A stretch of 64,000 nucleotides of DNA from Comamonas avium (GTDB taxonomy: Bacteria > Pseudomonadota > Gammaproteobacteria > Burkholderiales > Burkholderiaceae_C): the NCBI RefSeq assembly GCF_014836675.1, contig NZ_JACSQK010000003.1, forward strand, positions 306,763 through 370,762, written 5' to 3'. Within the stretch, counting starts at the first letter, position 1. Each line of letters begins with the position of its first letter. The notes beneath the pieces were generated by a model. It saw nothing but the letters and a program-made list of their open reading frames with translations. It was not told the origin of the DNA and did no database searches. This document shows, piece after piece, positions 1 to 19,721 of this stretch. A program made the translations under genes and the position numbers.

Positions 1-82
1 TCAGTGACGAAGCGAAATCTTCAGTTTTCATTTTTTATGCAACACCGGTACATGCATCGTGTTGCATTTTTTTGAACATTTC

Positions 83-98
83 GTCCTAAATTTAGGAC
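83..98. promoter_or_regulatory. Perfect 16-bp palindrome, candidate operator
   Basis: GTCCTAAATTTAGGAC reads identically on both strands, with no spacer. A perfect palindrome of this length in an AT-rich leader is typical of a dimeric-regulator binding site. The regulator is unknown. Confidence 0.4.
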
Positions 99-239
99 AG
101 TAAAGGTGATAAATGAGAATTTGACCTCTTTATTGAGTCTATAAAGGTCAAAAATGTGTGGTCTGAAACAGAAAGTGATAAATCTGTAGGACGTTTCCTA
201 GAATTTGTATCAATAGTTGATCTTTTTAGGTCGGCCAAA

Positions 240-271
240 AAGCTCTGCCGTGTGCGGAGCTTCTTTTTTTT
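240..271 (+). terminator. Rho-independent terminator before the DUF11 gene
   Basis: AAGCTC and GAGCTT arms flank an 11-nt loop that can itself form a GC/GC pair. A cytosine and eight T residues follow directly. The hairpin lies upstream of the chosen start at 331, so it either ends an upstream transcript or acts as an attenuator. It argues against translation starting at the in-frame ATG at 217. Confidence 0.6.
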
Positions 272-330
272 GTGTTGCTTTTCCTGGGAGATCACTTGCG
301 TGGTTGTTCCGGGCTGTGGAAAGCCTCCCT

Positions 331-3300
331 ATGCCGAACTTTCGCCTTCTCAATTGGACCAAGCTGCTGCCGTCTGGCACCCAGGGCGCAGCTGTACCCT
401 TTCGTACATGGTGTGCTAGCAGGTCGTTGCGTTATCTGGTGGCCTCTGCGTTGCTAGCGGGGGGGAGCTTCTGGGGGGCGGGCGTATTGATTGCTGCGGA
501 GTTCGCAGATTTCACGGTGTCGTTGGGGGTCAAGGATGTCGCTACCGACAAGTCGAGCCTCAAGCCCGGCGAGACCACCACATTGCGGATCACGCTTGGA
601 AATAACAGCAGTACAACCACTTTGACCAATGTCGGTTTCAGCGAGTTATTGCCCGTGGGAGCGAATGGCTCGCTGGAAGCGGTCGGCAGCCTTGAGATTC
701 TTCCAGTGGGCAGCGGCTGTACCGGCACGGTGGACCTCAGCGATACGAAAACCATTGTTGTTAGCGGTTTCACAGTTCCTCAGAAGTCCGGGGCCGAGGC
801 GGGACCCGTCAGCTGTTACATCGACATTCCGGTGATCGCCAAGTCGAAGACAGGGGTGAAGCAAGAAGGCTTGGTTTATGACCTGACGGGGAAAATCTCC
901 TCTGACCAGGGGAGCAACAAGGGCGATGCATCGAAGTCCTTTGTGGTGGAGTCTGTGGGGCGCCCCACGTGGGATAAAAGCTTTGAGGGGGGCGACGCCG
1001 TCCTGAATGGCGGTACCGTGAACCTGAAGTTGACGGTGACCAATCCCAGCAATGGCGTGCCGCTGACCAATGTCAGTTTCAAAGATATCTTCCCGACGAA
1101 CAGCGGCAGTCTCGGCGGTGCGGTGATTGACCCCGTAGGTACGCCCACATACGCCAATTGCGGCAACCCCTCGATCACTTCGAACTCAGGAGCAGCTGCC
1201 GGCGTGACAGTCAGCAGCGTCAGTGTGGCCGTAGGCCAGACCTGCACGATCACCGTCCCGGTGCAAGCACGCCACACGGGTGGTGAGTACCAACTGAGCA
1301 AGACCAACACATTGCAGGCGACTGATTTCTCGAGTGCGCAAGGGTTGGTGCCCAGCGGGAATGCCAGTGACTCCATCAATGTGCGCTCTCCGCTGCGGGT
1401 GGCCAAAACGGTGAGTCCTGCCACGGTCAGTGCAGGGCAGACTGGCACGTTTACGGTGGAGCTGTTCAACGACAGCAACCAGGCTCTGACCGTGGCGCAG
1501 TTCAATGAAGCGCGCATTAGTAATGCTTCGCCGGGTGGAACGAAGTACCTGGATGCAACCAGTGTCGCCAATAGCTGTGCAGGTGGAAGCCACGGCCTTA
1601 GCGGATCGAGCAATCGTGGCTTTACAACCTCGGGTTACTCCATTCCTGCCAATGGCAGCTGCAAGATCACGGTGACATTCACAGGGGCACTGGATCAGCT
1701 CAACGAACCGCTGACGTACACCAATACGATCAATAAAGGGCAAGTGGATGTTGGCAATGCAGCGATTGTCAGTCAGCCAGCTTCAGCTCCAGTGACGGTG
1801 GTCGATCAGTTCTGGGTCAACAAGACGCAATCGCCTGTGAATGCTGCACCGGGTAATCCTGTGCAGTACAACGTGACAGTGCTCAATTACGACAACAGCG
1901 CTGCTGCCAATGATGTGAAGGTGCGCGATACGCTGCAAAGCGGCAGCACTTTTTTGGTGGATGCGCCTTATGCAGTCAGCAGCACTTGTAGCAGCGGGAA
2001 CGGCAGGGTGGACACAACCAATGTGAAGGGTGATGGCAATCTGCTGTTCACTTTGTCCAGTGTGCCAGCGGCCAGTGGCAATACCCCAGGTTCGTGCACC
2101 ATCACATTTTGGGCACAGACCTCGACCACGGCGGCGATAGGAAACACGGTCAAAAATCGAATTGGCGAGTGTGGTGTTTATACGGGCAGCTCCCCTGCTG
2201 CCGGTACTTGCAATGGCAAAGCGTCGCAAGAGGTTGCTGCGACGGTCATTGCGCCCTTGAAGGCGGAGAAAACCTTCAGCGGTGACTACAGCAAGCCCGA
2301 TTTGGAGGTGCGCGAAGGCGCTCCGGTGACGTTGAAGATTCGCCTGTCCAACTACACCGACCAAAAGCTGACCGGCGTCACGCTGGGTGATGCCTTGCAG
2401 CTTGCAAGCAATGGAACAGCGCAACTGCGCATTGCTTCGCTGCCTAAGGCCAGTACCACCTGCGTGGGCGGTACGGTCACCGCAGCAGCCGATGGGACCT
2501 CGCTGGCGTTGAATGGCGCAGAGGTGCCGGCACGCACCGCCAGCAGCAATGCTCCGGGGCAGTGTGAGATTCAGGTGGATGTGGTCGGCCCCGCCGGCAT
2601 CTATTCCAATACGGCACAGGTGACGCAGGCGACGCAGACATATGCCAATGGCGCAGAGGCAAACACTGCGACCGTAAATTCCAACACGGCAAAGTTGACG
2701 TTCATTGGGTCGTTGACGGCCAGCAAGGCGTTTTCTCCGGATGTGATGACGGTCAATGGCAAGTCCACGGTCACCATCAAGCTCAAAAACAGCGATACCT
2801 CGGCGCCCATTACCGGCATTGCCGTCACCGATAACCTGGCAACGGCGGGCCTGAAGCTGGCCGATCCGGCAAAGATGTACAGCACTTGCGGTGGCAGCCC
2901 CACGTTTGAAGGAGCAGCGGGGGCGGGCAAGGCTGTCATGAAGGGCGCTTCGTTGCCGCCATCGGGCACCTGCGATTTCATCTTTGATGTGGTGGATGAC
3001 GGCAGCAAGACGTCTGGCAACTGGGTCAATATTCTGAAAGCAGGGGACATTCGCGCGGACAACGGTGTGCAAAACCAGCAGGATGTGCAGGCTACGCTGG
3101 CGCGCTCCTCGGAAGAGACACCCAGTATCACCAAGGCTTTTTCACTGACCGATGTGTCGCCGGGGCAGCCGAATCGACTGTCCATCGAGATCAAAAATGG
3201 GCAGCAGAAGTTGACGGGCGTCACGCTGACGGACTGGTTTACCCAGGACGGTACGCAGGCAGGCGCCGATACGGGACTGCGGATTGCCAGCCCTGCGAAT

Positions 3301-4263
3301 GCCGCAACCACCTGTTCGGGCGGCTCTGTGCAGGCGGTCTCTGGTGGTACGTCGGTGACCATACAAGGGGCAACTCTGGAGCAGCGCAACGGCGTGGATG
3401 AGCCTGGCAAGAACACTTGCACCGTCAGTGTTGACGTCATGGCCACCATTCCAGGGGCTTTTAAGAACACCATTCCTGCCAAAGGCTTGGTCAGCAACGA
3501 AGGGCAAAGCAATGGCGGCGCAGCGACCGCCTCGTTCCAGACCGGCAGCAAGGTGGGGGTGAGCAAGCATTTCACGCCGGCCGTGGTGACTGCGGGCGAG
3601 CGCTCGCGTCTGCGCATCAACTTCTACAACCCGACGCCGGTGGCGCTGGGCAATGTGGGCCTAGTGGACCAGTTGCCTGCAGCCGCCTCTGGTGGCGGCC
3701 AGATGACGGTGGCCCCCGGCCCGAATATCGTTCAGACCTGCGGTGATGTGACAAAGGTGGATGTCAGCGACCCCAAGAAGGTCGTCATCAGCAATGCCAA
3801 CCTGGCAGGCGCAGGTACCGGTGTGCAGGTGGTGGTCTGCTATGTGGAACTGGATGTGCTGGCCGATATAGACGGCTCTTACGCCAACAAGATTCTCGAA
3901 AACAGTCTGACCGTGCAGGACAAGCCGGTCAAGCATCCTCCGGCAGAGAACACGATGCACGCGGTGCAGCCACTGGTGGTGCACAAGGCCTTTGACCTGA
4001 AAACGCTGGACTCCGGCACCTTGCCTGGCGGTTGGAGCAAAGGTGTAGCCACACACAAGGCCGGTGAAGTGGCCACGCTGACCATCCATGTGGAGAACAA
4101 AAACCCCGACCTGGCGCTGACGGCGTTAACTTTTACCGACGTGCTGCCAGATGGTGTGGTGGTTGCACAGGTTTGCGACAGCGTGGGACTGGCGTTGGCC
4201 ACCGTCATCTCACGCTTGTCGTGGCGCACGGCCGCAGTGGTGCTCCACTGCTCATCCCATTGA
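331..4263 (+). CDS. DUF11-repeat surface protein, N-terminal part (cut by inversion at 4158)
   Basis: This is the N-terminal part of a very large secreted repeat protein. The ATG at 331 is preferred over 217 because a terminator hairpin lies between them and a GGAAAG sequence precedes 331. A long N-terminal segment ending in a hydrophobic stretch (RYLVASALLAGGSFWGAGV) looks like an export signal. About nine repeats of roughly 110-150 residues follow. Each has a KxxxPxxxxxGxxxxxxIxxxN opening, a conserved (T)TC(x)GG cysteine near its middle and a C-x-I/V-x-V-x-V stretch, as in DUF11 (CARDB/isopeptide-like beta-sandwich) domains. Homologous coding ends at 4158 inside a repeat (LPDGV). The remaining 35 codons to 4263 are antisense to the OmpA gene and are not part of the ancestral protein. 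The rest of the protein is encoded on the minus strand from 11211 down to 7101. As it stands the product is truncated and lacks its SdrD-B modules. Confidence 0.75.
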   Translation: MPNFRLLNWTKLLPSGTQGAAVPFRTWCASRSLRYLVASALLAGGSFWGAGVLIAAEFADFTVSLGVKDVATDKSSLKPGETTTLRITLGNNSSTTTLTNVGFSELLPVGANGSLEAVGSLEILPVGSGCTGTVDLSDTKTIVVSGFTVPQKSGAEAGPVSCYIDIPVIAKSKTGVKQEGLVYDLTGKISSDQGSNKGDASKSFVVESVGRPTWDKSFEGGDAVLNGGTVNLKLTVTNPSNGVPLTNVSFKDIFPTNSGSLGGAVIDPVGTPTYANCGNPSITSNSGAAAGVTVSSVSVAVGQTCTITVPVQARHTGGEYQLSKTNTLQATDFSSAQGLVPSGNASDSINVRSPLRVAKTVSPATVSAGQTGTFTVELFNDSNQALTVAQFNEARISNASPGGTKYLDATSVANSCAGGSHGLSGSSNRGFTTSGYSIPANGSCKITVTFTGALDQLNEPLTYTNTINKGQVDVGNAAIVSQPASAPVTVVDQFWVNKTQSPVNAAPGNPVQYNVTVLNYDNSAAANDVKVRDTLQSGSTFLVDAPYAVSSTCSSGNGRVDTTNVKGDGNLLFTLSSVPAASGNTPGSCTITFWAQTSTTAAIGNTVKNRIGECGVYTGSSPAAGTCNGKASQEVAATVIAPLKAEKTFSGDYSKPDLEVREGAPVTLKIRLSNYTDQKLTGVTLGDALQLASNGTAQLRIASLPKASTTCVGGTVTAAADGTSLALNGAEVPARTASSNAPGQCEIQVDVVGPAGIYSNTAQVTQATQTYANGAEANTATVNSNTAKLTFIGSLTASKAFSPDVMTVNGKSTVTIKLKNSDTSAPITGIAVTDNLATAGLKLADPAKMYSTCGGSPTFEGAAGAGKAVMKGASLPPSGTCDFIFDVVDDGSKTSGNWVNILKAGDIRADNGVQNQQDVQATLARSSEETPSITKAFSLTDVSPGQPNRLSIEIKNGQQKLTGVTLTDWFTQDGTQAGADTGLRIASPANAATTCSGGSVQAVSGGTSVTIQGATLEQRNGVDEPGKNTCTVSVDVMATIPGAFKNTIPAKGLVSNEGQSNGGAATASFQTGSKVGVSKHFTPAVVTAGERSRLRINFYNPTPVALGNVGLVDQLPAAASGGGQMTVAPGPNIVQTCGDVTKVDVSDPKKVVISNANLAGAGTGVQVVVCYVELDVLADIDGSYANKILENSLTVQDKPVKHPPAENTMHAVQPLVVHKAFDLKTLDSGTLPGGWSKGVATHKAGEVATLTIHVENKNPDLALTALTFTDVLPDGVVVAQVCDSVGLALATVISRLSWRTAAVVLHCSSH

Positions 4264-7100
4264 TGACGCAGACCCAGCTCAACGTTGCTGGAGGTCTGGT
4301 AGTCGCCTGCACGGTCATCGGCCTTGGCCTGCACCGTGGTGCGCTCTGTCAGCGGAATCTGTACCTTCACTCCAGCCTGGCGAATCGCTTCGCCGTTGTA
4401 GGCAATCTGGCCGGGGGCGGAATAGCCTTTTTCCTTGTCCTGCACATAGGCGCTGAGCGTGCCCTTGTGGCTGTCGGTCACCTCGGCCAGGTCCAGCGTC
4501 GCTTCCACACGGTAGGCCTTGGCCTCGTTGGGGCTGGCGCCGTTGATAGCGTTGAAGCCATAACCGCCATCCACCGATGAGGTGGTGCTGATATCGCTCA
4601 CGCCGCTGGAGCGGGCAACTTCGGCTTTCACCTGGGTACCAGCGGCAAGGCGCACTGTGGCATCCAGACCCTGCAGGGTCTGGCGGTACTCCTTCTCACC
4701 CTGCCGGTAACCGGTCAGCCCCACGCGCAGATGGTCGTTCATCCAGTGGCTGACACGGCCACCGTAGGCCATGGAATCCACGGCACTGACGCCCGGCACG
4801 TATTCATAGGTCACCACCAGATGCAGCGGATTACCCGACAGAGAGCTGGTGTAGATCAGGCCGCCACCCGAAGCGGTCGACGGCAGCGGCGCGCTCAGCA
4901 TGATGCGGCCCTGCAGGTAATTGACCTCGTAGTCCTGACCGGCTGCCAGCTGGCGGCGCTCGATCACCATGCCCGAATCACGGTCACGCACTTCGACCCA
5001 CACGCGCTCGGAGCCAACGGTCACATCCTGATGGCGCATGTAATAGAGTGAGCCGCCGGTGCCTCGAAATTCTTCGCGGGCACCCATGGTGCCCGGGTCG
5101 GCCGCGAAGGCATCCAGACCGGTGCGACGCTCGCCAAACGAGGTTGCATCATTCGAGCGCAGCTTGGCACGCGCGCCGTACAGGCCACGCGAATACTGGA
5201 TCAGCTCTGAGCCACTCCACGAGGTTTGGAAGTTACCCCACATGACCTGGGAGTCACCCTTGTCCAGACGCACAAAGAACTTGCCCTGGGTTGGGGCGTC
5301 GTCCACCGTGGTGCTGTCGTCCCCATAGACGGGGTAGTACACATCGGGATCGATGCGGCGCAGCAGATAGCGCGGGTCTTTCTCGCTGAAGTTATGAAAG
5401 AGGTCTTTCAGCGGCTGTTCGCGCGTGTCGGCTGCCGCCGTCAACAGCCAATCACCCTTGATCTTGCCCTTCAGGTAGAAAGCCCCGCGTCCATCCACAT
5501 AGGTTTCGTTGCGGTAGTGCTGCAGGTCGCTGGTGACCAGCTGTGCCGGGCCGGTGGTCTGGTTTTTGCCCACCGTTAAATCGCCCACTGCGACATAGAA
5601 CCAGTCGCTGTCCGGGATAGATACATTGCGGCGGAACGTGGCCGTGCGGCCATCGGTGCCAGTCACACTGACATCCACGCTATGTGGGCCTGTAGACAGA
5701 ATCTGGCGCGCCACAAAGCGGCCCTTGTCATCCACCGGAATCTGCTGGCCCAGCACCGTGACAGCTTCGCCCGGCTTGATCTGCGTGCCGCTGACGGTGA
5801 TGGTGCCACCGCGCACGGGAATATTGCTGACCTGCAGCGCGTTCTCGCCCCATCCCACCAGCGCTTCGCGGCTGGGTGTGTCCAGATCGTTCAAAGGCCG
5901 CTCGCGGGTGGCGACATTGAGCGACTTGGTGGCGGTCTCGTCAAAGCGCCCCTTGGCGTCGTACACGCGCAGCACGTAGATGTATTCGTCCTGCTCCAGC
6001 CCTTGCGACTGCACAGGCACAGTCCAGGCGGTGGTCTGGGCCCACTGCAGCGGCAACACGGCCAGAGCCTTGCCATCGGTGGGCTCGCCCTTGCGCAAGA
6101 TGCGTACCTCAGCCTTATCGATCCAGCTGACGTAGTTGCTCCAGCCTCGGAACTGCGCAGCCTCGCCACGCAGCGTCAGATCCTTGGTAGCCCAGACATT
6201 CAACGCTGGCTTGGCAGCCAGATCGTCGTACTTGATCTGAATGTCGGCGCGCTCCAGCGCCACGTCGACACAACGCTGACGATCGGCTTCATTGATGGCC
6301 GCGCCAGAAATATCTGCACCATCCACCGTCACGCGAAATGGCAAGTCTTCGGTGCTTTGCACAGCCGCACACTCGTCGGCAGACACAGGCTGCGCAGGCA
6401 CAACGGCTGCAGGTTCGCTGTCCCACCACATCGCAATTTCCACGCGGCGGTTCTGTGCCATGCCTTGCTGGCTGGCATTGCTAGCCACTGGCATGGTCTG
6501 TCCCTTGCCGTCCATGGCTACCGCCTCTGCGGGCAGGCCCAGGCCTTTGCGCAAAAAGCTGGCTACCGCCAAAGAGCGCGCCTCCGACAGCCCCTGATTG
6601 TCTGTGAAACGGCGCTTGGCGCGTGGCGACAGACGCTGGCTGTCGGTGTGGCCCACTACAGAAATCTTGACGTTGTGCTTGCCCTTCAACTGCGCCACAA
6701 CGGCATCGAGCGCAGCCACGGCACCCGGCGTCAGGTCTGCATAACCGGACTCAAACAAAGCGCCCGACTGCCCGCTCTCTGACAAAGCCAGCATCTGCTG
6801 TGCAGACCTGGTCGGCAAATGATCTTTGGCAGCACGCATCGCCAGCGCATCGCTGCGCGTCACCCCTGAGGGCAGCTCGTAGGCAAAGCCCTGTGGCACC
6901 AGCTCCGCTGGCGGCGGCGTCACTACCACCACCTGGCGTGCGTTGTCCACGCGCTTGCCTTGCTCTGCATGCGCATCCACCGCTTCGGCGGCCCAACTGC
7001 TCATGCTGCCCATTAAAACCAGGGTCACGGCACAAGCTACAGACGAACGAGTCCATTCGGGGTGCATCTGAGTGCACCCTTTTTGCATCAACGATTCCAT
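3879..7100 (-). CDS. OmpA-domain outer-membrane protein, N-terminal part (real coding ends at 4159)
   Basis: The ATG at 7100 directly abuts the TAA of the repeat-protein gene (7103-7101). The downstream ATG at 7067 has a better AAGGG ribosome site and leaves a clean signal peptide ending in SWAAEA. Residues about 110-225 form an OmpA/MotB peptidoglycan-binding domain (FESGYADLTPGA, VGHTDSQRLS, RRVEIAMWWD). A beta-sandwich and plug-like region follows, then the start of a C-terminal beta-barrel rich in alternating aromatic strands (LYYMRHQDV, LVVTYEYVPG, VSHWMNDHLRVGLTGYRQG). The homologous sequence stops at 4159 (residue 981, NASPTLSQ region). The frame stays open to 3879 only because it runs antisense through the DUF11 gene. 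The missing barrel half lies at 11212-12466 on the plus strand. DUF11 repeat proteins are often paired with OmpA-type barrels, which suggests an anchor or secretion partner. Confidence 0.75.
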   Translation of the reverse strand: MESLMQKGCTQMHPEWTRSSVACAVTLVLMGSMSSWAAEAVDAHAEQGKRVDNARQVVVVTPPPAELVPQGFAYELPSGVTRSDALAMRAAKDHLPTRSAQQMLALSESGQSGALFESGYADLTPGAVAALDAVVAQLKGKHNVKISVVGHTDSQRLSPRAKRRFTDNQGLSEARSLAVASFLRKGLGLPAEAVAMDGKGQTMPVASNASQQGMAQNRRVEIAMWWDSEPAAVVPAQPVSADECAAVQSTEDLPFRVTVDGADISGAAINEADRQRCVDVALERADIQIKYDDLAAKPALNVWATKDLTLRGEAAQFRGWSNYVSWIDKAEVRILRKGEPTDGKALAVLPLQWAQTTAWTVPVQSQGLEQDEYIYVLRVYDAKGRFDETATKSLNVATRERPLNDLDTPSREALVGWGENALQVSNIPVRGGTITVSGTQIKPGEAVTVLGQQIPVDDKGRFVARQILSTGPHSVDVSVTGTDGRTATFRRNVSIPDSDWFYVAVGDLTVGKNQTTGPAQLVTSDLQHYRNETYVDGRGAFYLKGKIKGDWLLTAAADTREQPLKDLFHNFSEKDPRYLLRRIDPDVYYPVYGDDSTTVDDAPTQGKFFVRLDKGDSQVMWGNFQTSWSGSELIQYSRGLYGARAKLRSNDATSFGERRTGLDAFAADPGTMGAREEFRGTGGSLYYMRHQDVTVGSERVWVEVRDRDSGMVIERRQLAAGQDYEVNYLQGRIMLSAPLPSTASGGGLIYTSSLSGNPLHLVVTYEYVPGVSAVDSMAYGGRVSHWMNDHLRVGLTGYRQGEKEYRQTLQGLDATVRLAAGTQVKAEVARSSGVSDISTTSSVDGGYGFNAINGASPNEAKAYRVEATLDLAEVTDSHKGTLSAYVQDKEKGYSAPGQIAYNGEAIRQAGVKVQIPLTERTTVQAKADDRAGDYQTSSNVELGLRHQWDEQWSTTAAVRHDKREMTVANASPTLSQTCATTTPSGSTSVKVNAVSARSGFLFSTWMVSVATSPALCVATPLLQPPGKVPESSVFRSKALCTTSGCTACIVFSAGGCLTGLSCTVRLFSRILLA

Positions 7101-10100
7101 TTAACGCACTCCCTGTCCCTGGTTGTTTTCGAAGGACTCCGTTTCAATCACCAGGGGTGGTGCTTCGTCCTCTTGATCTTTGCTTTGACGCTGCTTGGCC
7201 TGCTGCGCATAGCCCGCTTGAATACGCTGGGTCAACGCCTTCAGCCGCTGCTGCGCCACATCCTTGCCTTCACCCGTCATGCGGTAGGCCAGGCGCAGCA
7301 CCGTGGGGCGTTCTGCCAGCTGCATCAACAACTGCTCCAGCTGGCTGTCCCACTGCGTCGACAGTTGCTTGCCGTCCTGTGCAAAAGCACGGGCATCTAC
7401 CTCCAGACGCAGCACCTTGTGCACGGTGGCACCAAAGTTCAGCTTCACCATCTTTCCTCGGGTCACCCGCACATCGCGCGGGTTCTCCGTCGTCACGCGG
7501 TAGCCAGAAGGCAAGGTGCGCTCATCGAGCTTCATCACAAAGTTGCTGCCACGGTCCGCTTGCGGAATGGCGGCACACGCCACGTGAAAGCGACCATCCG
7601 CATCGGTCGTCACCAGCAGGCCACGGGCCGTCACCACGCGCACATTGGGAATGCCGGGCTCGCCCTGGTCCTGGTAGCCGTTGGCATTCTTGTCGTCGAA
7701 CACCTTGCCGATCAGGTCAGAACAGTCAAACAGCGGGTCTGGCACTACGCGCACCATGGCATTGGCTACGTTCGATATGCGGTCCCCCACAACGTTGTTC
7801 AGCGCCCAGGCCTGGTTGATGTATTCACCTTCGCCCACACCAGCACCCACCATCAGCAGCAGCTTGAAGGTTTTTCTCTCGCCGGCAGTAAAGGTCTGGT
7901 TCTTCCAGTCCAGCAGACGGCCGCTGACCTCTGGCTCCAGCGGCATACCGTTGTACGTCGCCGAACCCGTGCGATAGCGGAAACCTGGCGGAATGTGGTC
8001 CTGCACATTGACGTTACTCAGCGCCGACTGCAGCGTGTTGGTCGCCGTGATGGTGTAGGGCACCAGTTCACCCTTGGTCACATTGACCTTGGGCGATGTC
8101 TTGCTCACCACAATGGCTCCGCCCAGGATGGGGTCCAGCGGGATGTGGTTGTTGAGCACGTTATGCGAGTTCATCGCATCAATCTCGAAGCTGAAGTAGT
8201 ACTGCGTCGTCACCGGCGCTGTCCCGCCCACGCAAGGCACAGACCCCGCAGGTGCATGCAACGGTACGCTGGCTGCAGGCGCATAGCTGCTGGCCTGGAT
8301 GAGCTCCGGATTGTTCGCGCCTGCACGCACATCCAGTGTGTCGGGCACACAGGCCGGAATCATGGTCGAAGGCGCGGGCAAATACCCGGCTGGCGCTGTC
8401 ACAGTCAAGGTGTACTTGCCGACCGGTGCGTTGGCATTCAGCCAGAACTGGTACAGGCCATCTGCACCGGTGATTTGGGTGCCGGAACCCGTGCCAAAAA
8501 TATGCAGTGCCGGATCAAACCCAGCAGGTCCGCTGATCGTTACCACCGCACCCTTGACAGGCTGGCGCGTCACCGCGTCATACACCACACCACTGGGGTC
8601 CAGTGGCAGGCTTTGCTGCGTGATGTTGTCACCCGGCAGCAAGGTCAGCCCCGTCAGCACCCCATTTTTGATGGTGGCGCCAGCAGGATTGCCACTGTTG
8701 GAGCCTGCTTCATTGGCCTCCTCCGTATCCCGCTCACCCGGCTTTACCGTCGCACCACTCTCATTGGTCACGCCACCCGCATAGATCACACCACCGCTGG
8801 CAGGATCCCGGAAGCGCAGCTCATAGCCAGAGCCTGGCGGCAAATCGTTGATCTGGTATTTGCCGTTTTCGTCTGTCAGTACGGAAGCCACCACCACACC
8901 ATTGCGCACCAGCTCCACCAGCACGCCAGCCACTTTGGGCTCCCCGCCATCGAGCTGGCGGTTGTGGTTGTTGTCACGCCATACAGTGCCACTGATGCGA
9001 GCGCCCTTGGCCCACGGGCACGGGGTCTTTCACCGTATTGTTGCTGTCCAGCCCCGGCGGCTCGTTCACATTGCGCACTTGCGCCGTGTTCACTGCAATC
9101 GTGCCGTCCAGGGCATCGTCCGAGCGAACTTTGATGGTGATGGGGTTGCCATCGCTGCCAGCCTCAATCGGCGTGTTACTGGTGCAGGTAATCACTACCG
9201 CGCCCACTGCTCCCGTACAGGCCCACCCTGTGCCATACGCCGCAGCCCCCAGCGTCATGCCGTGGGGCAAGGTATCCACCACCGTAATGGTGCCCTGCGT
9301 GGGCTGTCCGCCCACGTTGTGCGGGGTGATGGTAAACACACCCAAAATGTCCGAGCCAGCGGCAAACGACTCGCCCTCATGCGTCTTCTTGATAGCAAGG
9401 TCAGCCGCGTCACCGGGTTTTTCTGCGAAATTATTTTCTGCAGACGCTTTGTTATTGCCTTTTAGATCGATAGTGGCAATCGTGCTGACCTTGCCAGCAC
9501 TCGGGTCTGCAGCTGTAACCAAGCCACCTGTGGTGCCCGGAACCGTCCTGCCTTCGGCCGTACCTTGAGGCTGGTTGGGCTGGGTGACGGTATACGTGCC
9601 TTCCGGCAAATTTTCGAAGCGGTAGTTACCGCTGGCATCCGTGTCCACTTCGCGGTAAATGGGGTTGCCCGCAACATCTGTGCCGTTCAAGACAATTTTT
9701 TGCTTGGCAATGCCATAGTCCTTGTCGTTGAACAGTCCATCGTCACCGAAGTCCAAGAACACCTTGCCCGCAATGCTGCGCGAGGAAGGGATCTCTGCGA
9801 AATTGTTCTCCTTGGACACCGTGTTGGGCGGCAGCGTGACATCAGTAATCCGGCTGGTATTGCCTTCGGTATTCGGATTCGACGGCGTGCCTCCTGTTGT
9901 CCCTGGCACAGTCTTTCCATTGCTGGTTCCTGCAGGCTGTTCAGGCTGCACCACGGTGTATTTACCGGGTGGCAGGTCATCCAAGCGGTAGCTGCCGTCG
10001 GGGCCCGTGGTTGTCGTACACGGTGTTCTGGACACACCAGCCACCGAGCACGTCGCAGGCTGGCCCTGTTCATTGAGCAACTCAATGGGAACACCCGCAA

Positions 10101-11211
10101 TCCCCTGATCCGATCCGTCGAGCAAGCCATTGTTGTTCGAATCGACAAACACCTTGCCGGTGATGCTGGAGTAGCCAATTTCCGGGAAATCATTGCCCGT
10201 GCTGCCCGCCACTTGGCCTGCCGTATCAACCAATATGATGCCGGCAATCTGGCTGCTGGTCGTGGATGCATTGGATGCAGTTCCCGGGGTGCCAGAACCC
10301 ACGCTGATTGAACCCGCCTGCGGCACCGCGTTGGCAGTTCCTGCTGGCTGTCCGGGTTGGCACACGGTGTACTCACCTGCATCCAAATCGGCAAACAGAT
10401 AATTGCCCAAGGCATCGGTTTTGACCGTCTTCAGCGGTGTGCCCGAACAGCTGCTTCCCTGGTGCAAATTGATGGTCTCTCCGGCAAGCGGGGTGTCCTT
10501 ACCCGGGTCAAACTGACCACCCGTCAGTTCGTTGTCCTTGAACACCTTGCCGGAAATCGCCCCCTTGGCACTCACACTCAGCACAGCATTGGCTGGCTCA
10601 GGGTTCTTGCCCACATTGGTCTCCAGCCCACCGGCAGGAATGGTGTTGTTGTAATTACCAGCCACGCTTCCGGCCAGTACCTGCACAGTGATGTAGCAAC
10701 CGCCCGCTGGCACCGTAGCACCGCTCTTGAATGTGATGGACGATGCGCCGGCCACCGCAGTGACTTGTGTTTGCACGCTTGGGCAGGTACCTGCCACCCC
10801 AGGCGTACTGGCAACCTTCATCTGTTGCGGCATGGCAGGCAGGGCGTCCACCATGTCTTTGCTCAAGGTAATGGCCGCTGCGTTGTCATTGGTGATGCGG
10901 ATCGTCAAAGTGGATTCGCCATTGGCGGCCACCACAGCCGGAGAGAACTGCTTGCTGACCAATGGCGGCGTGCTCACCACCAGCTCGGCGCTGGTGCTGT
11001 CCTCATTGCGTACGCCTTCCTGGCTGGTCACCCCTCCGCTAGGGATGGTGTTCACGTACGTGCCAGGCGTATTGCTCAGCACATCCACTGTCACCGTGCA
11101 ACTGCCTTTGGCAGGCAAGCTGGCGCCCGTCAGTCGCACTTCGCGCGCAGATGCCGGGGCCGTAACCACACCACCGCTGCAGGTTGTGGAGGCCTTGGGA
11201 AACGGTACACG
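4159..11211. other. 7,053-bp inverted block breaking two genes
   Basis: The left edge falls in the DUF11 gene and the right edge in the OmpA-barrel gene. At both edges the coding strand switches in mid-domain. Rejoining 4158 to 11211 (minus) gives ...LPDGV-RVPFPKASTTC..., a normal DUF11 motif. Rejoining 4159 (minus) to 11212 gives ...SPTLSQTCATTTDLQLR..., a continuous barrel. Both joins are in frame. The edges share only GTG (4156-4158 and the complement of 11212-11214). There are no long inverted repeats and no recombinase gene nearby. An assembly or library artefact cannot be excluded from the sequence alone. Confidence 0.85.
7101..8933 (-). CDS. DUF11/SdrD-B surface protein, C-terminal part (separated by frameshift)
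   Basis: This is the C-terminal third of the large repeat protein. The listed GTG at 8933 is only the first usable start. Homologous coding is open from about 8999, where an SdrD-B (Cna-B-like) module begins (ISGTVWRDNNHNRQLD). The module continues with a GKYQINDLPPGSGYEL strand, and further modules follow. These include a PVKGAVVTISGPAGFD carboxypeptidase-regulatory-like domain, a DUF11-like KTSPKVNVTKGELVPYTITA domain and a GKVFDDKNANGYQDQGEPG SdrD-B module that looks Ca-binding-like. The end is a charged, possibly helical tail. One extra base near 9001-9004 separates it from 8974-11214. Removing one base gives a single frame through to the TAA at 7101. The stop is immediately followed by the OmpA gene's ATG, so the two would be translationally coupled. 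Confidence 0.7.
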   Translation of the reverse strand: MAGVLVELVRNGVVVASVLTDENGKYQINDLPPGSGYELRFRDPASGGVIYAGGVTNESGATVKPGERDTEEANEAGSNSGNPAGATIKNGVLTGLTLLPGDNITQQSLPLDPSGVVYDAVTRQPVKGAVVTISGPAGFDPALHIFGTGSGTQITGADGLYQFWLNANAPVGKYTLTVTAPAGYLPAPSTMIPACVPDTLDVRAGANNPELIQASSYAPAASVPLHAPAGSVPCVGGTAPVTTQYYFSFEIDAMNSHNVLNNHIPLDPILGGAIVVSKTSPKVNVTKGELVPYTITATNTLQSALSNVNVQDHIPPGFRYRTGSATYNGMPLEPEVSGRLLDWKNQTFTAGERKTFKLLLMVGAGVGEGEYINQAWALNNVVGDRISNVANAMVRVVPDPLFDCSDLIGKVFDDKNANGYQDQGEPGIPNVRVVTARGLLVTTDADGRFHVACAAIPQADRGSNFVMKLDERTLPSGYRVTTENPRDVRVTRGKMVKLNFGATVHKVLRLEVDARAFAQDGKQLSTQWDSQLEQLLMQLAERPTVLRLAYRMTGEGKDVAQQRLKALTQRIQAGYAQQAKQRQSKDQEDEAPPLVIETESFENNQGQGVR

Positions 11212-11214
11212 CAC
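8974..11214 (-). CDS. DUF11/SdrD-B surface protein, middle part (no native start or stop)
   Basis: This internal segment of the giant repeat protein lies inside the inverted block. It opens directly in a DUF11 motif (RVPFPKASTTCSGG) whose first half is at the end of the 331-4263 gene. It continues through two DUF11 repeats and then three SdrD-B modules (GKVFKDNELTGGQFDPGKD, GKVFVDSNNNGLLDGSDQG, GKVFLDFGDDGLFNDKDYG). The modules are spaced by Gly/Thr-rich linkers of the form QPAGTxxxxxVPGTTGG. A final DUF11-like domain (DLAIKKTHEGESFAAGSD) then runs into the frameshift. The GTG at 11214 is only the junction codon, not a natural start, and the last residues before 8974 (SHQWHCMA) are out of frame. 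It is unlikely to be translated on its own in this orientation. Confidence 0.7.
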   Translation of the reverse strand: MRVPFPKASTTCSGGVVTAPASAREVRLTGASLPAKGSCTVTVDVLSNTPGTYVNTIPSGGVTSQEGVRNEDSTSAELVVSTPPLVSKQFSPAVVAANGESTLTIRITNDNAAAITLSKDMVDALPAMPQQMKVASTPGVAGTCPSVQTQVTAVAGASSITFKSGATVPAGGCYITVQVLAGSVAGNYNNTIPAGGLETNVGKNPEPANAVLSVSAKGAISGKVFKDNELTGGQFDPGKDTPLAGETINLHQGSSCSGTPLKTVKTDALGNYLFADLDAGEYTVCQPGQPAGTANAVPQAGSISVGSGTPGTASNASTTSSQIAGIILVDTAGQVAGSTGNDFPEIGYSSITGKVFVDSNNNGLLDGSDQGIAGVPIELLNEQGQPATCSVAGVSRTPCTTTTGPDGSYRLDDLPPGKYTVVQPEQPAGTSNGKTVPGTTGGTPSNPNTEGNTSRITDVTLPPNTVSKENNFAEIPSSRSIAGKVFLDFGDDGLFNDKDYGIAKQKIVLNGTDVAGNPIYREVDTDASGNYRFENLPEGTYTVTQPNQPQGTAEGRTVPGTTGGLVTAADPSAGKVSTIATIDLKGNNKASAENNFAEKPGDAADLAIKKTHEGESFAAGSDILGVFTITPHNVGGQPTQGTITVVDTLPHGMTLGAAAYGTGWACTGAVGAVVITCTSNTPIEAGSDGNPITIKVRSDDALDGTIAVNTAQVRNVNEPPGLDSNNTVKDPVPVGQGRSHQWHCMA

Positions 11215-12466
11215 CGACTTGCAACTGCGTGCCGATTACGTGCCGCTCAAAGACGGTGGCAAGCCCGCAGAGAAGGAAGACTGGTCGCTCTATGGCTTTG
11301 TGCAAGGCACGCTGGAGCGCAGTCAAGAGCGTGACGCGAACAACCGCGCTGGTGTTGGTGGCCAGTTGCGTCTGAATGATCGCTGGGCACTGAATGCCGA
11401 GGCCTCGGGCGGCAACCTGGGTGCAGGCGGCATGCTGGGTGCGGACTACCGCATCAGCGATCGCAGCAATGCGTATCTGAACTACCGTCTGGAAAGTGAA
11501 AACCCCGACACTAACTACCGTGGCCGCTACGGCAGCTGGGTGACTGGCAGCAACTATCGCTTGAACGACACCACCCGCCTCTTTGGTGAGGTACGCGCTA
11601 CCGATGGTGCAGGCTCGCAAAGTCTGGTGCAGGCTTTTGGCGTGGATCTGGCACCCAACGACCGCTGGAGCTTCGGAACCAAGATGGAGTTTGGCACCAT
11701 CAGCGACGCGCTGGGTGGCGACTACGACCGCAAGGCCGTGGGTTTTTCGACCAGCTACAAGTTTGACGGTGTGAAGTACGCAGGTGCTGTAGAACTGCGC
11801 CGCGACAAGAACACCAATGGCCAGACGCGTGACACCTGGCTGATGCGTAACAGCTATGGCCAGCAGCTGACACCGGCGTGGCGTCTGCTGGGCAAGTTCA
11901 ATATTTCGCGCAGCAGCAATTCAGAGGGTGCGTTCTACGACGGCAACTTCCACGAAGCCGTGATTGGCGCGGCTTACCGCCCGGTGGACAATGACCGCTG
12001 GAACACTTTGGTCAAGCTGACCAGTTACAACAACGTGCCCACGGCTGGTCAGCTCGATAGCAACGGGCAAGTGGCCGACTATGCACAAAAGAGCCAGATT
12101 TTCGCGGTGGACACCATCTGGGACGTCAAACCGTGGGTCTCTCTGGGCTTCAAGTACGGCCTGCGCGTGGGCAAGCTGCGCATGAACAAGGTGGATGGCC
12201 CCTGGTTCTCCAGCCGAGCAGATCTGGTGGTATTGCGCGCCGACTGGCACTGGGTGCATGAGTGGGACATCGTGACCGAGGTGCGCAATCTGCGCGCCAA
12301 GGAAGCGCAAGATGCTCGCGCGGGCGCACTGGTCGCTGTCTACAGGCATGTGGGCAAGCATGTGAAGGCGGGCGTGGGCTACAACTTCACCAACTATTCT
12401 GACGACTTGACCGATCTTTCCTACCGCAGCCGTGGCTGGTTCATCAATGTGCTGAGTACGTTCTGA
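11212..12466 (+). pseudogene. C-terminal beta-barrel half of the OmpA-domain protein (orphaned)
   Basis: The 418 codons from the inversion edge to the TGA at 12466 encode a run of amphipathic antiparallel strands (TDLQLRADYVPL, WSLYGFVQGTLERSQ, GVGGQLRLNDRWALNAEAS and so on). They end in WFINVLSTF, with the terminal phenylalanine typical of BAM-assembled outer-membrane barrels. The fragment has no start codon or signal peptide. Upstream in the same frame the DNA (back to 10727) is antisense to the DUF11 gene. Joined to the minus-strand OmpA part it would give a protein of about 1,398 residues. Its natural terminator follows at 12506. Confidence 0.75.
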
Positions 12467-12505
12467 GCTGGCGCATCTGCGCGTTGTTTCTGGGCTCTAG
12501 TAAGT

Positions 12506-12536
12506 GCCTTCCCGCTCAGGCGGGAAGGCTTTTTTT
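12506..12536 (+). terminator. Strong Rho-independent terminator after the OmpA-barrel gene
   Basis: A perfect 10-bp GC-rich stem (GCCTTCCCGC with GCGGGAAGGC) has a TCAG loop and is followed by seven T residues. It ends the plus-strand DUF11/OmpA transcription unit and supports plus as the ancestral orientation of both broken genes. Confidence 0.9.
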
Positions 12537-12678
12537 ATGAGCCGGATAAAAACGGCGAAAGGTAAATGCTCTGGCCTGGACGTTTGCAGGACGGGCCTGT
12601 TGAATGGGTCTTCGCATGGAGCGACCAGCGGCTTGAGCGATGGGAGGCCTTGTGTCACCCGGTGGTTTTTAACGGTCT

Positions 12679-13704
12679 TCAGATATACAGAGGTTCGTCT
12701 TGCATGGCCTGCAGCTGCTCTTGCAGGGTGGCGGTTTGTTCGAGCCAATATGTTTCAGTCCCGAACCAGGGAAAGGCACGCGGAAAAGCGGGATCGCTCC
12801 AGCGCTGGTCCAGCCATGCACTGTAGTGAATCAGGCGCAGTGTGCGAAGTGGCTCAATCAGTGCCAGCTCTCGCCGGTCAAACGCACGCATTTGTTCATA
12901 ACCTTCTACCAAGGTCGAAAGTTGCTGGCTGCGCTGCATGCGATCGCCTGACAGCAGCATCCACAGGTCCTGCACGGCAGGGCCCATGCGTGCATCGTCC
13001 AGATCCACAAAATGCGGGCCACCTCTGCCATCCGCATCTACGGGGGACCACAGAATGTTGCCCGGGTGGCAGTCACCATGCAGGCGAATGCTGCGGTAAG
13101 GGGTAGATTGCAGCGTGTGTGCAGCTTGCGCAAGGGCGGCTTCGCATGCCGGTTGCCAGCGCTGGCGCACATGAGGCGGCATGTCGGCATGCTGCAAGAG
13201 CCATTGCATGGGCTGCATACCCATGGTTTGCACGTCCAGCGGCGGGCGGGAGGTGAAACTTTTTTTCTCACCAGTCACATGCAAGCGGGCCAGAAAGCGG
13301 CCAATCCACTCCAGGGTGTCCCAGTCTTCCAGCTCGGGCGTTCGTCCACCGCGCCAAGGGCTGATGCTGAACGCAAAACCTGCGTGGTGGTGCAGCGTGG
13401 CAGCCTGCAATGGCAGGGGGGCGATCACCGGCACTTCGGCCTGTTGCAGCTCTTTGGCAAACGCATGTTCTTCTTGAATCTGTGCGTCGCTCCAGCGGCC
13501 AGGTCGATAGAACTTGGCAACCACTTTGTCGCAGCCCTCTACCGGCTTGTCCAGACAAGCCTGGTACACACGGTTTTCGTAGGAGCCAAGCGCCTGCAAA
13601 CGACCATCTGGCCATAAGCCTGCGGCATTGAGCGCGTCCAGCACGCAGTCGGGCGTCAGGGCGTCGTAGGGATGAGAGGCGTCAGCAGTTTGGGTGTGGC
13701 TCAT
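12679..13704 (-). CDS. srkA: Stress-response protein kinase SrkA (YihE)
   Basis: This is a cytosolic Ser/Thr kinase of the choline-kinase-like fold. In E. coli SrkA (YihE) protects cells from programmed death under envelope and oxidative stress. The ATG at 13704 (MSHTQTADAS) is chosen over an upstream ATG that would add 12 unconserved residues. ATP-site lysine 64 lies in VVAKFYRPGRW. The catalytic loop HGDCHPGNILW and the metal-binding FVDLDDARMGPAVQDLWM are intact and close to the E. coli sequence. The length (341 residues) is normal for the family. It is transcribed alone, convergent with the terminator at 12506. The regulator gene at 13909-14574 lies upstream on the same strand with a 204-bp gap. 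Confidence 0.9.
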   Translation of the reverse strand: MSHTQTADASHPYDALTPDCVLDALNAAGLWPDGRLQALGSYENRVYQACLDKPVEGCDKVVAKFYRPGRWSDAQIQEEHAFAKELQQAEVPVIAPLPLQAATLHHHAGFAFSISPWRGGRTPELEDWDTLEWIGRFLARLHVTGEKKSFTSRPPLDVQTMGMQPMQWLLQHADMPPHVRQRWQPACEAALAQAAHTLQSTPYRSIRLHGDCHPGNILWSPVDADGRGGPHFVDLDDARMGPAVQDLWMLLSGDRMQRSQQLSTLVEGYEQMRAFDRRELALIEPLRTLRLIHYSAWLDQRWSDPAFPRAFPWFGTETYWLEQTATLQEQLQAMQDEPLYI

Positions 13705-13908
13705 ACGATCAGATTGTCGTGCGCCTTCAATGATGGACAAGCTCAGTACGTTTCAATCTGTATGCTGCGTCAGGTGATTGGCCCGCAGGCGATCCTGTGC
13801 CGGCACTCAGCGGTGCTCGATGTGAAGATCAAGCGTGCTGCAGACGCTGCCCCGGCTGCGCAGTTGCGCCTTCAAAGATGGAATGTCTCGTGGGTGCTGA
13901 GAGGGGGC

Positions 13909-14574
13909 TCAGAGGGTGCTGACGGCACTGCGGGCGGGGCGTATCTGATAGACGCAGCGCTGGCCACCTTCCAGCAGGTATTCTCCACGCTCTACCGTAG
14001 CCAGGTGGCCCACGACTTCCTGGAAGAGACATTGTTCGGATCTGCAAAATCCACGGCAGCTCTGTGCTGCGGCACAGATCGGGCAGTGGTTTTCCACCAG
14101 AAGCCAGCCCTCGCCATGTGGCTCCACATGTGCCATGTAGCCTTCAAGGGTTCGAATTTTGGCCAGCTGCTCGAGCCGTTGCGGTAAATCTTGCGCCGTG
14201 CATGCCTGGGCGTAGCGTGTACGGGCATCGACTTCTCTGTCTGTAATGAGTTCATCGAGTCCGCGTTCACCAAACAATTTCCGGATGGAACCAATGAGCT
14301 GCACGGTCAGCTGGGCATGTGCATCGGGAAAGTAACGCTGCCCGGCTGGCGTCAAAGTCCATAACTGGCGGGGACGCCCGGCCCCCTTTGGTGGCTGCGT
14401 TGTGCCCTGTACCAGCTCTTGCTCCACCAGCTTGTTGATCTGCTGTCGCGCTGCTTCCGGGGTCATTTGCAGCGCCTTTGCCAAGGCGCTGGTGCTGACG
14501 GGTGCCAGGCGCTTCATCGTTTCGAGCATGCGCAATGCAGAAGGTGCATCAGAAGAGGTGGCGTGTGATGGCAT
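13909..14574 (-). CDS. Cysteine-cluster winged-helix regulator (SufR/ArsR-like)
   Basis: This DNA-binding regulator is divergent from the MFS transporter at 14663. Residues about 24-60 form a winged helix-turn-helix (VSTSALAKALQMTPEAARQQ), followed by a GxGRPRxLWxLTxxG wing as in SufR and DeoR/ArsR-type repressors. The C-terminal half has a dense cysteine set, C164-x2-C167-x5-C173-x3-C177-x4-C182 (within ENHCPICAAA and CRGFC), plus C207. This suggests an Fe-S or metal cofactor that senses redox or metal state. The 88-bp shared intergenic region with the transporter makes it the likely regulator of that gene. The ligand is unknown. Confidence 0.75.
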   Translation of the reverse strand: MPSHATSSDAPSALRMLETMKRLAPVSTSALAKALQMTPEAARQQINKLVEQELVQGTTQPPKGAGRPRQLWTLTPAGQRYFPDAHAQLTVQLIGSIRKLFGERGLDELITDREVDARTRYAQACTAQDLPQRLEQLAKIRTLEGYMAHVEPHGEGWLLVENHCPICAAAQSCRGFCRSEQCLFQEVVGHLATVERGEYLLEGGQRCVYQIRPARSAVSTL

Positions 14575-14662
14575 TTATTTATGCAAGTTATTGCTTTGTT
14601 TATTTGGGGCTTGCTCTTTTATCAAAGAGAATACTTGCATTATTCTGGTGCAAAAGAAACAT

Positions 14663-16114
14663 ATGACAAGCATGACATCCAAAGAGCCCACCATTGCAGT
14701 GGCAGACGGTCCATCTGGCAGCTGGGGCGCATTGCTGGGGCGAGCACACGGGCTGACGGCGCTGGCACTGACCGGAGCCGTCGCAATGCACGCGATCAAT
14801 GTGCATATTGTGACCACAGTCCTGCCCTCGGTAGTGCAGGAAATTGGTGGTCTGCAGTGGTATGCATGGAGCACAACGCTGTTTGTCGTGGGATCGATCA
14901 TCGGTGCTGCACTGTCTGTGAAGCTGATGGCTTGCAGTACGGCCAGAGGCGCGATGGTGGGAGCGTTGCTGGTGTTTGCGCTGGGTACGCTGGTCTGTGC
15001 CACCGCAGCCAGCATGCCTGCCATGTTGCTGGGGCGCACGGTGCAAGGGCTAGGTGGCGGTGTGGTGGGGGCCTTGAGCTATACCTTGATTCGCATGGTG
15101 TTTCCACCGCATTTGTGGCCGCGAGCGATTGCACTGGTCTCGGGGATGTGGGGTATTGCAACCTTGAGCGGGCCTGCAGTGGGGGGCTTGTTTGCACAGT
15201 CCGGCCACTGGCGCTGGGCTTTCTGGGCCTTGTTGCCCCTGCTGGCGGCACAGATGCTTTTGGTGTTTCGGCAGTTGAACCCTGAGCGCATGCTGCAGCC
15301 CGTCAGCGTGACTGGCAGCGGTATTGCAACGCGGCAGATTGCTTTCCTGGCGCTGTCTGTCTTGCTGATTGCAACGGCCAGTGTGGTGACGGGTTCGGCA
15401 CTGCAATGGCTCAGTGTCTTGGCGGGCTTGCTGGTGGGTGGCCTGGCGCTGAGCACTGAGCGGCAGGCCGCAGCTCGTTTGCTGCCACGAGGTGGTACGT
15501 CCATTGGGCACCCGCTGGGCATGCTCTATGCCGTGGTGGCCCTGCTTTTGATGGGCACGATGACCGAGATTTTTGTCCCTTATTTTCTGCAGCATCTGCA
15601 TGGGCTTCAGCCTTTGACAGCGGGCTACGTCACTGCGTTGCTGGCAGGCGGGTGGTCATTGGCCTCCGTGTTTTTCTCCGGAAAATCAGGTGCCACGGTA
15701 CGCAGACTGATGGTTGCCGGGCCTGCGATAGGTGCTACTGGTTTGGTTGTGCTTGCAATGGCCATACCTTCCCAGGGAACGTGGGCACTGAGCATCTGCG
15801 CAGTGGCGTTGGCGGCCATTGGCCTGGGAGTAGGGATGGCCTGGCCCCATGTGCTCAATGCCATCATGCACAGCGCTGACAAGGATGATGCCGACGTGGC
15901 TGCATCTGCGATCACTACGGTGCAGCTGTATGGCATGGCCGTGGGGGCAGCTTTGGTGGGCTTGGTGGCCAATGCCACGGGGGTGTCTACACAGACGGAG
16001 CCGGGTGCGCTGGGCAATGGCGCAATGTGGATTTTTGGCTTGTTTGCACTGTTTCCTGCAATGGGCGTTTTCTACATGTGGCGCTTCTTGAAAGCCTCGC
16101 ACAGATCGGTGTGA
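14663..16114 (+). CDS. MFS transporter (DHA2-like drug/solute exporter)
   Basis: This is an inner-membrane major facilitator protein of 483 residues with about 14 hydrophobic segments. Motif A is degenerate. GRTVQGLGGGVVGAL after the third-fourth helices and GPAVGGLFAQ (motif C-like, helix 5) place it with H+-driven drug exporters of the DHA2 type. The start is ATG 14663 (MTSMTSKEP). An in-frame alternative lies at 14672, and the frame is open back to 14402 only through the divergent regulator's coding region. The divergent SufR-like regulator probably controls it, so the substrate may be linked to redox or metal stress. The specificity cannot be read from the sequence. Confidence 0.8.
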   Translation: MTSMTSKEPTIAVADGPSGSWGALLGRAHGLTALALTGAVAMHAINVHIVTTVLPSVVQEIGGLQWYAWSTTLFVVGSIIGAALSVKLMACSTARGAMVGALLVFALGTLVCATAASMPAMLLGRTVQGLGGGVVGALSYTLIRMVFPPHLWPRAIALVSGMWGIATLSGPAVGGLFAQSGHWRWAFWALLPLLAAQMLLVFRQLNPERMLQPVSVTGSGIATRQIAFLALSVLLIATASVVTGSALQWLSVLAGLLVGGLALSTERQAAARLLPRGGTSIGHPLGMLYAVVALLLMGTMTEIFVPYFLQHLHGLQPLTAGYVTALLAGGWSLASVFFSGKSGATVRRLMVAGPAIGATGLVVLAMAIPSQGTWALSICAVALAAIGLGVGMAWPHVLNAIMHSADKDDADVAASAITTVQLYGMAVGAALVGLVANATGVSTQTEPGALGNGAMWIFGLFALFPAMGVFYMWRFLKASHRSV

Positions 16115-17222: not shown

Positions 17223-19721
17223 TCAAGCCTGGGCATCAGCGCTTTGCGGTGCCTTGAACCCACGCAGGCGCAAGGCATTGCCCAGAACAAAGACGCTGGA
17301 TAAAGCCATGGCACCTGCCGCATATATGGGTGACAGCAATACGCCATAGGCGGGGTAGAGGACGCCAGCGGCCACGGGAATCAACAGGGTGTTGTAAGCA
17401 AACGCCCAGAAGAGATTCTGGTGAATATTTCCAATCGTGGCTTTTGACAGGGCAATGGCGTTGGGGACGCCTTGCAGGCTGCCGGACATCAATACGACGT
17501 CAGCGGCCTCTATGGCCACATCTGTGCCCGTTCCAATCGCCAGGCCCACATCAGCAACCGCCAGTGCTGGGGCATCGTTGATGCCGTCACCGACAAACGC
17601 TACATGACCATGTGCCTGCTTCAGGCGCTCGATGGTCTGAACTTTGCCCTCGGGCATCACCTCGGCCACCACCTCGTCAATACCGAGCTTGGCGGCAATA
17701 GCTTGCGCGGTGCGCTGGTTGTCGCCGGTGATCATGATGACCTTGAGGCCCAGTGCGTGCAGTGCAGCAATGGCATCTGGCGTACTCGCTTTGATGGGGT
17801 CTGCAACGGCAACCACTGCAGCCAGCTTGCCATCCACCGCAACGTACAGGGGGGATTTGCCTTCTGCTGCCAAACGTTGTGCGGTGCTGTCAAACACGGT
17901 GACGTCCAAGCTCAGTGAACGCATGTAGCGGTCGGCGCCCACTTCAACGCGCTGGCCGTCAGCGATGGCGTGCACGCCCATGCCCGTGATGGATTCAAAG
18001 TCAGTCAGCTCAGGCAGCGTAAGGCCCTCTTGCTGCGCCGCCTCTACGATGGCGCGGGCGATGGGGTGCTCCGAGCGAGACTCCACAGCCGCCATGAGCG
18101 CCAGCACTTGTGCGCGCTCAAAGCCTTGCAGCACTTCCAGATCGGTCAATGCGGGGCGCCCTTCGGTCAGGGTGCCGGTTTTGTCAACGGCAATCGCCTT
18201 GGCGTTCTTGAGCAGCTGCAAGGCTTCGCCTTTGCGAAACAAGATGCCCAGCTCTGCGCCGCGCCCAGTGCCCACCATGATGGAGGTCGGGGTAGCCAGT
18301 CCCATGGCGCATGGGCAGGCAATGATCAGAACCGCCACAGCGTTGACCAGTGCGAAGCTCAGCGCGGGGGATGGGCCAAACACCAGCCATACGAGAAACG
18401 TCAGCAAAGCTGCGCCGATGACCGCTGGCACAAACCATAAAGTGACTTTGTCCACCACCGCCTGAATAGGCAGCTTGGCCCCCTGGGCTTGCTCGACCAG
18501 ACGGATGATCTGGGCCAGCACGGTATGCCCGCCGACAGCGGTTGCCTGCATGGTGAAGGCACCTTTTTGGTTGACGGTGCCGCCGACCAGCGAACTGCTG
18601 GGGATTTTCTCGACAGGAACAGGCTCGCCGGTAATCATGGACTCGTCCACATAGCTTCGGCCTTCCAGCACGGTGCCGTCCACAGGTACACGTTCGCCGG
18701 GGCGCACTTCGACTGTGTCGCCAGTCACCACTTCTGCCAGCGCAATGTCCATGCGCTGGCCATTGCGGATGACGTGTGCTGTCTTGGCTTGCAGTCCGAC
18801 CAGCCTCTGGATGGCTTGCGAGGTACGCCCTTTGGCGCGAGCTTCCAGAAAACGACCCAGCAATATCAGGGCCACAATGACCGCTGCCGCCTCATAGTAG
18901 ACATTGACGGTGCCTGCGGGCAGCAGGTGGGGCAGGAACGTTGCCACGACCGAATACATATACGCAGCCAAAGTGCCAACGGCCACCAGGGAGTTCATAT
19001 CCGGGGCGGCCCGCAGCAGGGCGGGAATGCCCTTGAGATAAAACCGGCGACCGGGGATCAGCAGCACGAGGGTGGTCAACGCAAACTGCAAATACCAGCT
19101 CGCTTGCATGCCCAAAGAGGTCATGACCCAATGGTGCATGGCCGGAATCATGTGGGAGCCCATTTCCAGCACAAAGACCGGCAGCGCCAGCACCGTGGCA
19201 ATCAGCAGGTCGCGTTGCAGGGCTGCGCGCTCTGCATCTTTCTGCGCAGTGGCAGCCTCATCGGTATTTTGTGCAAAGGCGTCGATGGCCCGGCCCGGAT
19301 AGCCGGCCTTTTCGAGCGCGGCCAGCAGATGCTCTACTGGCGCCACGCCGCGCACCGTTGCCCGCTCGGTGGCCAGATTCACGCTGGCTTCAGAGACACC
19401 GGGGACTGCCTTGAGGGCCCGTTCGACGCGCCCCACGCAGGAGGCGCAGGTCATGCCCTCGATGGCCAGCTCTGTGGTGCGGGCGGGTACTTCGTAGCCA
19501 GCTTTTTCGATGGTGTGAACGACAGCCATGATGTCCAGACCGCCATTCGATGCAAGATGAACCCGCTCGGTGGCTAAGTTGACAGACACCTGGTCAATAC
19601 CGCTGAGTTTGCGCAGTGCCGATTCAACCCTGCCGACACAGCTGGCACAGCTCATGCCTTCGACAGGCAGGCTGATCTCTGCGGCACGGGACAGGCTTTG
19701 ATTTTGACTTGGCTGGTTCAT
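17223..19721 (-). CDS. copA: Cu(I)-exporting P1B-type ATPase CopA
   Basis: This inner-membrane copper exporter of 832 residues has two N-terminal HMA domains (GMSCASC near residue 20 and GMTCASC near residue 90). Membrane segments follow. The actuator TGE loop lies in [12 protein letters not shown]. The membrane CPC metal site is in [11 protein letters not shown], the phosphorylation site is DKTGTLTEG, the nucleotide-domain HP motif is SEHPIARAI and the hinge is [10 protein letters not shown]. All catalytic motifs are present. Length and order match the CopA/ActP family. It is the first gene of the copA-cueR unit, preceded by a 19-bp-spacer promoter, and it works with CopZ to pump Cu(I) to the periplasm. 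Confidence 0.95.

Follow-up and report, generated by a model that had tools for sequence, protein, structure and literature searches.

A pair of adjacent genes of Comamonas avium, coding for a long DUF11/DUF7933 repeat protein and an OmpA-type protein, has probably been inactivated by one recent, almost homology-free (illegitimate) inversion. The pair is located in the window, i.e. the whole stretch of 64,000 nucleotides that was analysed, on contig C13 of the draft genome G000 (3.93 Mb in 19 contigs). The assembled sequence does contain the inversion. An earlier note, made from the DNA alone, had proposed that it breaks two genes reciprocally, and this was borne out by blastn, which gave flipped blocks, and by blastp of the separate pieces. 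The positions of the features are collected in Table 1.

The gene pair in related genomes

A scan of the genome contigs identified 18 loci, of which L040 was dropped from the set, as only an OmpA domain matched and none of the pieces. The others and L012, L013 and L014 make up 20 loci that carry at least part of the pair. Since L012 and L027 represent one contig, 19 of these are distinct. Named records among the related loci include Acidovorax, Comamonadaceae, Azoarcus, Oxalobacteraceae and Pseudoalteromonas. The same-genus comparison genomes with the pair were G009 and G032, the locus of the latter being L013; more distant same-genus matches with 34-36% identity (G001, G002, G003, G012 and G034) were left out of the comparison of arrangements.

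The usual order in the relatives is a DUF11/DUF7933-SdrD-type gene with an OmpA-type gene downstream on the same strand. The pair of the two same-genus relatives codes for a protein of 2641 or 2653 amino acids followed by a protein of 1395 amino acids, and the frames of the two genes overlap by one base. The first protein of L013 contains the Pfam domains DUF7933, SdrD_B, DUF11, SpaA and CarboxypepD_reg, and the second an OmpA domain. The name 'barrel', given earlier to the C-terminal part of the OmpA-type protein, is based on the window piece, which matches PF13505 weakly and below cut-off.

Among the 19 distinct related loci, 18 have the OmpA pieces in one uninterrupted frame, and the remaining one (L029) ends at a contig edge. 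The upstream and middle pieces of the DUF11 gene were in one frame in all ten loci in which both were found; the upstream piece was not detected in the other nine distinct related loci, and the upstream DUF11 half of G009 is too divergent for a match. The intact pairs of the relatives (L013, L023, L024 and others) consist of the same two proteins as the window, in the same order once the block in the window is accounted for, whereas inversion and a frame change were observed in the window copy alone. Extra sequence of roughly 265-360 nt between the matched parts was observed in L014, L032 and L039 near the position of the breakpoint in the OmpA-type gene, which marks this place as a variable spot of the protein.

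Table 1 Features of the disrupted gene pair (positions in the window)
Feature	Position	Strand	Location and evidence
DUF11/DUF7933 repeat gene, upstream part	331..4171	+	Outside block; ORF; blastp of 331-4158 to L013 residues 1-1287; Pfam DUF7933, DUF11
Left inversion junction	4171..4172		Within about 2 bp
Inverted block, 7,030 bp	4172..11201		blastn, blastp, related loci
OmpA-type gene, upstream part (start codon at 7100)	4172..7100	-	Inside block; ORF; blastp to residues 1-977 of 1395 in L012 and L013; Pfam OmpA
DUF11/SdrD-type gene, downstream part	7101..11201	-	Inside block; blastp to L013 residues 1293-2022 and 2046-2653; Pfam DUF7933, SdrD_B, DUF11
Frame change in DUF11 gene relative to intact relative (frameshift or sequencing error)	9004..9029	-	blastx against L013 protein
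Right inversion junction	11201..11202		Within about 2 bp
OmpA-type gene, downstream part	11202..12466	+	Outside block; blastp of 11213-12463 to residues 979-1395 of 1395; blastn from 11200
Terminator-like hairpin just past OmpA-type stop, in the pair's original direction	12506..12529	+	Consensus scan; 10 pairs, then T run; says nothing on function

Inversion of the block and position of its ends

When positions 1-16000 of the window were compared with L013 by blastn, the segment 4165-11172 (79% identity) aligned in the orientation opposite to that of 1018-4169 (71%) and 11200-12466 (86%). The residues matched in blastp by the DUF11-type pieces abut along the 2653-residue protein of L013, as do those of the two OmpA-type pieces along the 1395-residue protein (Table 1). 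Flipped blocks together with abutting pieces are the pattern left by one inversion with one end in each gene. Two findings would have overturned the reading of the earlier note, namely four fragments from four different proteins, or relatives with the same broken arrangement conserved. Neither was made: the pieces belong to two proteins, and the broken arrangement occurred in none of the 19 distinct related loci.

A right-junction query against 53 genomes of the genus gave long matches outside the own genome only in G009 and G032, both beginning at 11200, and a left-junction 60-mer, searched in 41 genomes (G032 not among them), matched the own genome and, via the OmpA side only (25-60), G009. 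The inverted order is derived relative to the intact relatives. Megablast of window positions 3500-12500 against a plasmid collection gave no match, and only 56238-56493 of the window was matched by the G032 flanks (16 and 17 kb), in which no synteny around the pair was seen. A literature search covering titles and abstract openings found nothing on this locus.

Cuts at 4158/4159 and 11211/11212, as proposed earlier, keep both frames open but lie about 10 bp off by homology. Plus-strand homology to the DUF11 gene continues beyond 4158 to about 4170 and that to the OmpA-type gene starts already at about 11200; compared with L013, the earlier cuts make the DUF11 gene one codon short and the OmpA-type gene one codon long. 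With the preferred cuts, 4171/4172 and 11201/11202, both gene lengths agree with L013 (counted by eye) and the residues of relatives at the OmpA place are fitted (also by eye). The alternative cuts 4170/4171 and 11202/11203 keep both frames and lengths and are nearly as good; with two neighbouring cut pairs that fit, the uncertainty of the ends is about 2 bp. The block fitted by homology is 7,030 bp long, not 7,053 bp as given before (Table 1). The exact run shared by the ends is 2 bp at the preferred cuts and 3 bp (GTG) at the earlier ones, GTG being an in-frame coincidence at misplaced cuts.

State of the two genes

As read from the open reading frames, about 30 foreign residues would follow the upstream DUF11 half before a stop at 4263, and about 96 would follow the upstream OmpA half, whose frame runs on to 3879. 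The inverted half-genes are, by the predicted layout, severed from the pair's upstream region, and both genes are broken as the sequence stands and, we infer, non-functional. The downstream half of the DUF11 gene additionally changes frame between about 9004 and 9029 relative to the continuous L013 protein, a feature absent from the earlier note, which is either a sequence error or a second lesion separate from the inversion.

The nearby genes at 12682-13740 and 17226-19721 match NCBIfam models nearly end to end, so that sequence errors do not look rife in this small sample of two genes. The latter, on the minus strand, codes for a copper-translocating P-type ATPase of 832 amino acids (TIGR01511, above cut-off).

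Between the window pieces and the same-genus relatives dN/dS (NG86) was 0.12-0.21 for DUF11 and 0.06-0.16 for OmpA, values that are rough because dS was high in several comparisons (up to 1.26). Relative to L024, dN of the two window OmpA pieces was 0.216 and 0.134, and that of the intact relatives 0.197-0.198 and 0.142-0.149. The low dN/dS of all pieces gives no sign of long decay, and the inversion looks recent relative to the divergence of the species.

An artefact of assembly, scaffolding or library construction, with the living strain having the order of its relatives, is an unlikely source of the arrangement. The genome is a draft in 19 contigs, the frame change in the same DUF11 gene could be a sequence error, and random ligation chimeras have junction homology just as short. 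Both junctions, however, are reciprocal, share only 2 bp and show no loss of bases; random chimeras would need to agree at both ends, an assembler would presumably need longer shared sequence to flip the block, and the two nearby genes checked are full length. An artefact is consequently less likely than an illegitimate inversion, and the assembly is inferred to be correct at this locus.

Search for recombination sites and enzymes

Inverted repeats at the ends scored within the range of random pairs with both cut sets and at every flank size, the observed scores being reached by 238 to 996 of 1000 random pairs in a first test and by 447 to about 1635 of about 2000 in a second. These scores and the 2-bp exact run uphold the earlier view that the sequence shared by the ends is too short for homologous recombination. 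For direct repeats, which would not cause an inversion, the fewest random pairs to reach the observed score (62/1000 and 113/2000) were those with 30-bp flanks. No hairpin stood out on any of the four junction strands of 101 bases, with z between -0.82 and 0.97.

At the preferred cuts 13 of 26 bases matched in register, a level attained by 36 of 5000 random pairs. When 961 nearby registers were compared, the best match was ordinary, with 107 of 200 null pairs doing as well, and no conserved paired site was found in the five relatives tested, all of which match at 7-11 of 26 bases at the same places, within the nulls. The dyad matches were 5/13 and 3/13. Since several tests were made, the cut is free by a few bases, nearby registers are ordinary and the relatives are within the nulls, the 13/26 match is a weak lead.

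The earlier statement that no invertase is encoded holds for contig C13 as far as serine (PF00239) and tyrosine (PF00589) recombinases go, neither domain having a match there. Elsewhere in the genome 3 PF00239 and 12 PF00589 matches were found (11 of the 12 above cut-off), the three serine recombinases matching NCBIfam models only below cut-off. One serine recombinase, of 212 amino acids (L041, 1471-2109, on contig C15 of G000), lies directly after an ORF of 285 amino acids that by eye resembles a phage replication protein, and the two are possibly part of a filamentous-phage-like element. Ku (PF02735) had no match in the genome, and in a control one of 14 named genomes, Bacillus subtilis, had one; Ku-dependent end joining was accordingly rejected.

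A reversible phase switch, worked by a recombinase encoded elsewhere in the genome and seen here in its broken (off) state, is improbable. Surface proteins are common targets of such switches, recombinase domains are present outside the contig, and 13/26 bases match in register at the cuts. The absence of inverted repeats above chance speaks against it, however, as known invertible sites have terminal repeats that are typically 10-20 nt long according to PMC5903667; so do the ordinary nearby registers, the relatives within the nulls, the low dyad counts and the further frame change in the same DUF11 gene. Like the site-specific invertons described there, the flipped segment lies next to or in surface-protein genes, but it differs from them in having no above-chance terminal inverted repeat, no serine or tyrosine recombinase match on the contig and no conserved paired sites in the relatives tested (PMC5903667). 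A programmed inversion without recognisable inverted repeats, in which one crossover would split or rejoin two adjacent surface-protein genes and so turn both off or on, is very improbable.

Inversions in bacteria commonly arise by recombination between repeats. Homologous recombination between insertion sequences or other repeats, lost since then, is nevertheless extremely improbable here: neither junction has a scar or repeat, the gene lengths match those in L013, and it is implausible that elements were cleanly lost at both places.

Origin of the inversion

Among the three options of the earlier note, namely a recent illegitimate inversion, a phase switch driven from elsewhere and an assembly or chimeric-read error, the illegitimate inversion fits best and the phase switch is left almost without support. 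In the starting state the gene of a long DUF11/DUF7933-SdrD_B repeat protein would have been followed by that of an OmpA-domain, outer-membrane-type protein. The block of about 7,030 bp (4172-11201), which has its ends in different genes of the pair, would then have been reversed by a single inversion with no base visibly lost. As the ends share about 2 bp, they would have been joined by illegitimate, almost homology-free recombination, either by rejoining of two breaks or by topoisomerase subunit exchange, Ku-dependent joining looking unavailable. The frame change in the DUF11 gene would be expected in a pair freed from selection, without implying an order of the two lesions. The event has the look of a single chance rearrangement of the chromosome, not of a new genetic switch, although the 13/26 in-register match could hint at a degenerate site and counts against an illegitimate inversion.

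Spontaneous microhomology inversions of Salmonella, as presented in a chemostat study (PMC3411829), are likewise single inversions that had neither a dedicated site nor a recombinase where they occurred. In the verified ones, however, junction homology was at least 12 bp, and verification failed for the two tested inversions with 7 and 9 bp (PMC3411829), so that by comparison the 2-bp event described here would be unusual and at the low end.

For the annotation of this genome, the several apparent genes at the locus are two broken ones. If the arrangement is an artefact, the locus marks an assembly error. If the inversion is present in the living strain, it would be a clean and lossless case, joined over about 2 bp of homology in a genome where Ku was not detected, and a useful one for asking how such ends get joined.
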